A stretch of 64,000 nucleotides of DNA from Chloroflexota bacterium (GTDB taxonomy: Bacteria; Chloroflexota; Limnocylindria; Limnocylindrales; CSP1-4). Below are positions 52,198 through 52,801 of the stretch, in pieces. Both the position numbers and the translations under genes were made by a program. Positions within the stretch are counted from its first letter, which is position 1. Each line of letters opens with the position of its first letter. The stretch spans positions 124,001 to 188,000 of the forward strand of contig JAJZRG010000001.1 in NCBI GenBank assembly GCA_021802825.1. Direction: 5' to 3'. The notes beneath the pieces were generated by a model. That model saw only the letters and a list, made by a program, of their open reading frames with translations. It searched no databases and was not told the origin of the DNA.

Positions 52198-52801
52198 GCT
52201 CGAGCCGCGCGTCGCGGCGAGTGGGGACCAGGCCCACGGAGCCGCGTCCGCGCATCGGATCCGGCGCCAGGCCGATCGGCGGCTGGTGATGGAGACGTCA
52301 CGCGGCGCCATCATCGCTGTGGCCGCGGCCGAGCTCGGCCCGCCCGCGCGAGACCGTCCCCGGCTACGAACCTGCTTCGTGCAGCCGGCGCCCCGCGGCG
52401 AGCCTCGGCCCGGCGACGAACCTGCTTCGTGCAGCCGGCGTCGAAGCGTCACCGGCGCCCCAATGACGATCCTGCTTCGTGCTCGGCGCGGGCGCGCCGC
52501 CAGCCGTGCACCGAGCACGAACCAGGATCGTGGGCGGCGCCAGTGCCAGCGCCAGCACGCACGGCGCGGCGGGGGCAGACCGCCCGACGCCTCATCTTGG
52601 CTGGCGGGTGCGGACCTGGTACGAGGAGGCTTCGTTGATGGCACGGATCGCCTCGCCCCCCTTGGTGCCGTCGGTCCGGCGAGGGGTCGCGGAACCTCCG
52701 CCCCGCGGACAGGTTCGACGCGTGGCCCCGGCCGAGGACGACCCCGGCCGATGGCGACCGCGACCGGCGCCGGCGGCAAGCCGAGAGCGAGCCCAGCGCT
52801 C
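52198..52801. other. 600-bp intergenic region holding a 50-bp-period repeat
   Basis: No supported gene. It separates the pyrRBC unit from the convergent decarboxylase gene and contains the stem-loop repeat array at 52366-52531. Confidence 0.6.
52366..52635. repeat. Regularly spaced stem-loop repeats (period 50-52 bp)
   Basis: ACGAACCTGCTTCGT (stem ACGAA/TTCGT, 5-nt loop) occurs at 52366-52380 and 52416-52430. A variant ACGATCCTGCTTCGT lies at 52466-52480, ACGAACCAGGATCGT at 52517-52531, and ACGAGGAGGCTTCGT at 52621-52635. Distances are 50, 50, 51 and 104 (2 x 52). The first two copies extend to ~30 nearly identical bases (…GCAGCCGGCG). The bases between copies differ. Confidence 0.8.

Follow-up and report, generated by a model that had tools for sequence, protein, structure and literature searches.

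By analogy, the lambdoid operators are the closest described counterpart of the repeat arrays reported here with respect to the mode of reading, and the REPIN-RAYT elements with respect to genomic habit. The operators of 434, P22 c2 and 933W are dyads whose outer half-sites are fixed and whose centre is free, the 434 operator being ACAA-N6-TTGT, and the arrays of the Chloroflexota genome studied here (G000; 3.93 Mb in 98 contigs) share this anatomy, as well as the helix-turn-helix (HTH) superfamily of their putative reader. They differ, however, in having an N7 and not an N6 centre, in combining three to seven dyads in a fixed mirror layout, in being dispersed in about 16 copies per genome, in the nuclease-type domain that appears to follow the HTH, and in a site located in the 3′ end of the reader's own gene. 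REPINs and BIMEs with their RAYT genes are likewise extragenic repeats of alternating orientation with a cognate gene and thus a two-part logic, and REPs are usually found in more than 100 copies, according to excerpts of two papers (PMC2817692, PMC8049555), as compared to about 16 arrays in G000. In contrast to REPIN/RAYT, the gene adjoining the repeat in G000 codes for an XRE protein, and the dyads would be read as double strand and not as REP hairpins. MITEs resemble the solo arrays in being short, dispersed, without a gene of their own and also found inside coding sequence, but the arrays have no visible conserved ends and their internal boxes are conserved between species. The known chromosome-organising pairs of site and protein, matS/MatP and parS/ParB, finally, likewise consist of dispersed palindromic sites for one protein, whereas G000-type sites are grouped in phased arrays of several units, whose box changes from one sister species to the next. 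No description of arrays like these was found in the titles and abstract beginnings of the open-access literature searched, a body of text outside which most subscription papers lie; by its anatomy the array appears new in kind, while it would be a variant of something known if it served a plain regulon.

In the window, i.e., the whole 64-kb stretch of DNA that was analysed, five dyads begin at positions 52366, 52416, 52466, 52517 and 52621, with spacings of 50, 50, 51 and 104 bp, exactly as described in an initial annotation of this sequence. That annotation gave the unit as ACGAW-N5-WTCGT, a strict pattern to which units 1 to 4 conform, whereas the fifth (ACGAGGAGGCTTCGT) fits only the looser ACGA-N7-TCGT. 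The latter, which also includes the fifth unit, is preferred as unit definition: a 15-bp dyad with 4 + 4 fixed outer bases (the box) and seven free inner bases. The strict pattern has four matches in the window, all of them in this cluster, as compared to a mean of 0.15 and a maximum of one in 100 shuffles. Overlooked so far was that units 1 to 3 and units 4 and 5 have opposite orientations, as read from their flanks: A units tend to have CGCC-N3-T 5′ of the box and GC 3′ of it, B units have the reverse complement, and the order is A-A-A, B, long gap, B, as follows.

52366..52380, plus strand: unit A1, dyad ACGAACCTGCTTCGT, forward, exact ACGA-N7-TCGT
52416..52430, plus strand: unit A2, dyad ACGAACCTGCTTCGT, forward, 50 bp after A1
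52466..52480, plus strand: unit A3, dyad ACGATCCTGCTTCGT, forward, 50 bp after A2
52517..52531, minus strand: unit B1, dyad ACGAACCAGGATCGT, start 51 bp from that of A3, flanks opposite in direction to those of A1-A3
52532..52620, no strand: long gap from B1 to B2, 104 bp start to start
52621..52635, minus strand: unit B2, dyad ACGAGGAGGCTTCGT, inverted, as deduced from the layout common to other arrays

The array begins 169 bp beyond a 69-residue open reading frame, which itself follows a gene labelled pyrC in the initial annotation, and it stops 167 bp short of where a pyridoxal-dependent decarboxylase gene of the opposite strand ends; given the orientation of these neighbours, it is located between converging genes.

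Arrays of this kind are present elsewhere in the same genome as well as in related genomes. G000 contains 42 ACGA-N7-TCGT pairs at distances of 48-52 bp, in contrast to none for the reversed control pattern, and these belong to at least 16 arrays (about sixteen) with 80 exact dyads. Thirteen of the 16 have one layout, with three units forward and two inverted and with spacings of 40 or about 50, about 50, about 51 and then 94-104 bp, the exceptions being C4, C44 and C88. A CRISPR or CRISPR-like array, as might be suspected from the regular spacing and the dissimilar spacers, has a negligible probability, and the initial annotation was right on anatomical grounds to consider it not obvious: units differ in their inner bases and flanks and are inverted within the array, only eight bases are fixed, and 13 of the 16 loci repeat one and the same short layout.

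As one of two possible functions, processed RNA hairpins had also been suggested. However, the predicted folds of the five window units are not more stable than those of shuffled sequences (z −0.80 to 0.02), so that the foldback hairpin typical of REPIN-RAYT is missing, too. A structured RNA, i.e., a long hairpin or cruciform, between A3 and B1 would agree with the folding of window stretch 52455-52542 (z −5.57; whole array, z −2.45) and with z values below −2 against single-base shuffles in ten of 16 arrays, but the fold results from the consensus shared by A3 and B1 in inverted form. The inner bases of these two units pair at 2.38 of seven positions both within and across arrays (permutation 0.54), and the inner flanks at 7.44 of 12 within as compared to 7.20 across arrays (permutation 0.25); since there is thus no co-variation of the inner bases, and as Rfam matched nothing in the window but a distant tRNA, a functional RNA hairpin is considered very improbable.

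The invariant 4-bp half-sites, the phased spacings and the co-variation of box and recognition helix outlined below all support the other suggestion, an array of sites for a protein on one face of the helix. Over 60 distinct arrays the spacings have a period of 10.6 bp (R = 0.83), i.e., about one DNA turn, so that spacing in the relatives proceeds in steps of one turn and not at random; this sample consists of arrays found via pairs near 40-71 bp, with orthologues counted repeatedly and gaps with a decayed unit included, and with ten loci (seven tandem repeats as well as L203, L121 and L139) removed by hand beforehand. When only distinct spacing values are considered, none of 5000 random sets performs as well; with these values limited to 60 bp and above or to 85 bp and above, four and five of 3000 random sets, respectively, do so. 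In line with this, among the pairs listed in a search from 20 to 80 bp in six genomes, distances of 40-41, 49-52 and 61 bp and one of 69 bp (in G000) were found, as compared to none for the control. Neither outcome that the initial annotation named as refuting was observed: arrays occur in other places of this genome and in its relatives, and the spacings of the latter are not random.

A candidate reader of these sites is encoded on the minus strand at G000:C43:52830-53504, flanked by genes which we take to be pdhB and odhB, and an array of its own starts at the 3′ end of this xre gene. The predicted protein has an XRE helix-turn-helix (Pfam HTH_31/HTH_3), with HigA, DdrO, dh434 and P22 c2 as relatives in the PDB, followed by a D...ExK motif, the D, E and K of which are kept in 56 of 56 homologues. 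Based on this motif and on sub-threshold profile matches (PDDEXK_11, YhcG_C, NERD, HSDR_N_2, UPF0102 and Mrr_cat in five of seven proteins; also YraN and Upx), the C-terminal domain is putatively of the PD-(D/E)XK type, which would confer nuclease activity. The structure model is poor (pLDDT 62), and the Foldseek matches listed cover mainly the HTH.

The xre family is multi-copy, with ten matches in G000 and a match in 92 of the 101 family genomes searched. In 13 genomes, one array begins at the 3′ end of an xre gene. Of 13 clear array-bearing xre loci, 11 have the first dyad at an identical, fixed place within the gene's 3′ end, and the two others have it 3 and 6 bp away. Across 55 homologues, a count from which ten tblastn matches had been removed by coverage, this place has on average 2.70 of four outer pairs, in contrast to 1.19 at other offsets and 2.17 at the next best. 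The latter symmetry lies 51 bp, or one unit spacing, upstream of the 3′-end dyad within the xre coding sequence and may reflect a further site or codon conservation. The fixed-place dyad is exact in 17 of 20 arrayed xre genes, five to seven of these 20 having been accepted partly on the basis of that very dyad, as compared to two of 34 non-arrayed ones; in the 35 non-arrayed genes the fixed place is with a mean of 2.24 of four barely the top offset (next, 2.03). The assumption that the 3′-end dyad is a general trait of the xre family was therefore narrowed to array-bearing genes. Also rejected was an array beside every xre paralogue: 38 of 55 homologues have no AC-box array alongside. In G034 and G074, both of which possess arrays, no array-adjacent xre gene was found among the three of seven and one of six xre matches examined, respectively.

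With residues numbered as in the 434 repressor by our own alignment, residues 28, 29 and 33 of the recognition helix track bases 1, 3 and 4 of the box. At the fixed place of the 55 homologues, an outer G-C is found in five of seven proteins with R28 but in one of 42 with Q28 (p = 6e-5), and an outer A-T in 30 of 42 with Q28 but in none of seven with R28 (p = 6e-4), while base 3 is G in ten of 11 proteins with D29 and C in seven of ten with Q29; leaving out the arrayed genes, G accompanies R28 in four of five and Q28 in one of 25 cases (p = 9e-4). At 20 array loci, L33 coincides with A at base 4 in 12 cases and with another base in one (G041, with box ATCG), and residues other than L33 with A in none and with another base in seven (p = 1e-4). 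As the homologues are related, all these p values overstate independence. The 20-locus table omits unclear cases (the second G000 paralogue with a GCCC pair, the second G028 paralogue with a CACC box, G093 and G031) and includes G064 on the basis of two exact dyads and G016 on the basis of one exact dyad and near matches. At the fixed place, the tracking by residue 33 is imperfect, with A for L in 13 of 20 and C for R in eight of 20, and with A for L in three of seven non-arrayed genes.

This code agrees with the textbook contacts of arginine with G and of glutamine with A. According to excerpts of a study of the 933W repressor (PMC3317979), K46 (and K42) touches the methyl group of the base-4 thymine in a model, the exact role of this methyl being called unclear, and residues 21-46 of 933W were superposed on residues 12-33 of 434. 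On account of this superposition K46 can be taken as the equivalent of residue 33, so that the pairing of residue 33 and base 4 would fit the 933W model. According to the same excerpts, the P22 and 434 repressors read the central base pairs indirectly (PMC3317979), with which the free N7 centre agrees.

In some relatives the box itself is a different one, namely ACGC, ACCG, ACCA or GCCC. Thus, the odhB locus of G028 has the same kind of array with the box ACGC. An ACGC pair is present in 18 of 101 family genomes, with 0-2 control pairs per genome, and there are 14 such pairs in G028, 13 in G009 and 18 in G074 as opposed to none in G000, G076 and G058. Conversely, ACGA pairs number 42 in G000, 13 in G076 and 12 in G058 but zero in G028, and a search with a stricter pattern likewise gave none in G009 and G074. 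Genomes with arrays carried either ACGA or ACGC where both were searched genome-wide, and this mutual exclusion suggests that a single trans-acting reader serves the dispersed arrays within each genome, an argument that covers these two boxes and stands beside a second xre paralogue of G070 with a GCCC array of its own. Stray ACGC pairs in ACGA genomes (one in G044, two in G070 and one in G100) and an ACCG set in the dnaE2 gene of G044 were judged to be chance occurrences. In G001, ACCG arrays adjoin the xre gene and occupy two sites of a 314-kb sample of this genome, in which there is no ACGA or ACGC pair. Five phased ACAA-N7-TTGT pairs, as compared to four ACCG pairs, were seen in the same sample (pieces L270-L289) and may represent a plain tandem repeat or a second box. 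Second xre paralogues with adjoining boxes of their own seem to occur at L194 (G070:C7; GCCC), L183 (G000:C23; GCCC) and L187 (G028:C279; CACC), and one genome may accordingly run several xre/box systems.

Because arrays are found at the 3′ ends of xre genes and because helix residues track box bases, the window feature is read, with a probability of about 0.8, as a solo operator array whose five ACGA dyads lie on one helix face and would be bound by dimers of an XRE-HTH/PD-(D/E)XK-type protein. According to this sequence-based model, protein dimers would occupy each dyad, with neighbouring dimers 4, 5 or 6 turns apart, and roughly 9 to 15 turns across the long gap, and thus on one face of the helix. 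The A/B inversion, with three units one way and two the other, would result in a mirror complex and presumably in a single nucleoprotein assembly. The helix of the protein would set the box, which would explain why the dispersed arrays of one genome have the same one.

What purpose such operators might serve is less certain. XRE proteins are usually regulators, and several of the G000 arrays are located 150-450 bp upstream of a start codon, as would be expected for an ordinary regulon in which the arrays repress or activate neighbouring genes. However, according to our codon-usage gene finder, on which these distances are also based, the 16 arrays are found between converging (five), diverging (two) and tandem (eight) genes and in one case (C44) in-frame within a gene, i.e., in every gene orientation. 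Since five arrays thus lie between convergent genes and one within coding sequence, since the neighbours have no evident common function and since the xre gene itself harbours a dyad at its 3′ end, an ordinary regulon is regarded as unlikely. A promoter or terminator element was dropped after the survey of flanking genes. Two oppositely oriented arrays (L095 and L096; G000:C62:54194 and 64021) are only about 10 kb apart on one contig.

In seven orthologue comparisons, 277 of 280 box positions but only 115 of 244 inner bases are identical, a contrast that is partly built in because the sites were chosen by exact boxes in G000 and the relatives' arrays by the same pattern; the spacers are 62-73% identical with gaps allowed. 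Nearly all boxes are intact in five species at the odhB locus, where the inner bases are 31-41% identical, and judged from these sequences this would still be hard to get by chance. The xre-odhB array is orthologous in G000, G076, G044, G084 and G070, and a shorter form exists in another genus (G058). An array at the odhB locus in all genomes was rejected, since of 30 loci only those of G000, G028 and G058 have one in the stretch examined. A scan of genome contigs for three ACGA units yielded 21 stretches, 14 of them from Chloroflexi, and the same pattern, the only box scanned, had no match in viral contigs. The non-Chloroflexi stretches (L068, L073, L075, L076, L077, L080 and L087) were discarded as they look like plain tandem repeats of similar units. 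In four of them (L068, L075, L076 and L087, from Cohnella, Stenotrophomonas, Oscillospiraceae and an alphaproteobacterium), tandem palindromic units of about 48-53 bp are near-identical, unlike those of the G000-type array.

Box conservation, together with dispersal, phasing, the mirror-like layout and the indifference to gene orientation, would also be in line with chromosome-organising sites, i.e., with about sixteen arrays anchoring a nucleoid protein independently of the neighbouring genes. However, the exact pattern is present in five of 12 genomes of the genus, and seven of 12 have no ACGA pair, though other boxes could hide there; the box switches between sister species, which is unusual for an essential organiser, and chromosomal positions cannot be read from 98 contigs. 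Such a role is therefore just as doubtful as a regulon.

The patchy presence in the genus is in line with a mobile two-component repeat of the MITE or REPIN kind, in which the xre-nuclease would disperse the solo arrays and repeated copying would maintain them without any service to the host, a reading that is compatible with an operator array. The C44 array of G000 resides in-frame inside a DNA polymerase III alpha-type gene, which we call dnaE2; it is common to G000 and G076, in both of which it lies in-frame in a linker, G058 has dyads between the same gene blocks, and no exact dyad was found in seven other members of the genus examined, one of them incomplete. Alleles without dyads exist, the linker being too variable for ends to show. 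In this genus, dnaE2 (L092:874-5877 = G000:C44; orthologues L132-L139) has a long, hypervariable, low-complexity linker between conserved blocks, whose length varies greatly between species with or without an array. The placement of arrays in any gene orientation and the nuclease residues kept in all 56 homologues are further points in favour of mobility. On the other hand, neither fixed ends nor target duplications nor terminal inverted repeats were seen in aligned arrays inspected by eye, where conservation ceases within about 8 bp of the outer units. As the G000 copies are little alike outside the boxes (mean identity 0.407, best 0.57, 15 arrays), there has been no recent burst of copying; in addition, the odhB-side array stays at one locus across two genera, and the boxes of solo copies are conserved, unlike in dead MITEs.

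On balance, the spreading of a two-component repeat is ranked first among the purposes of the operator arrays, followed by chromosome organisation and regulation, but this preference is tentative and falls well short of an even chance. In this reading, gene plus array would constitute the complete unit on which the solo arrays depend, as REPINs do on RAYT genes. It is easier to imagine that 80 sites change in concert via copying than by point mutation. With slightly more confidence, though still somewhat below even odds, the arrays could form part of a two-component repeat system of a previously undescribed kind, in which many XRE-HTH/PD-(D/E)XK genes have a dyad in their 3′ end and a phased mirror array alongside, solo arrays are seeded genome-wide, and helix and sites switch together between sister species following a residue-to-base code.

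If binding were confirmed, these proteins would offer, within one bacterial family, a natural experiment on a DNA-reading helix that has changed several times together with scores of scattered sites, and a recognition code for helices of the 434 type could be derived from nothing but sequence. It would also raise the question whether the 80 sites of one genome switch together through copying or through selection, and hint at what a very common protein family does, the family libraries scanned having given only HTH names and weak nuclease matches for it.
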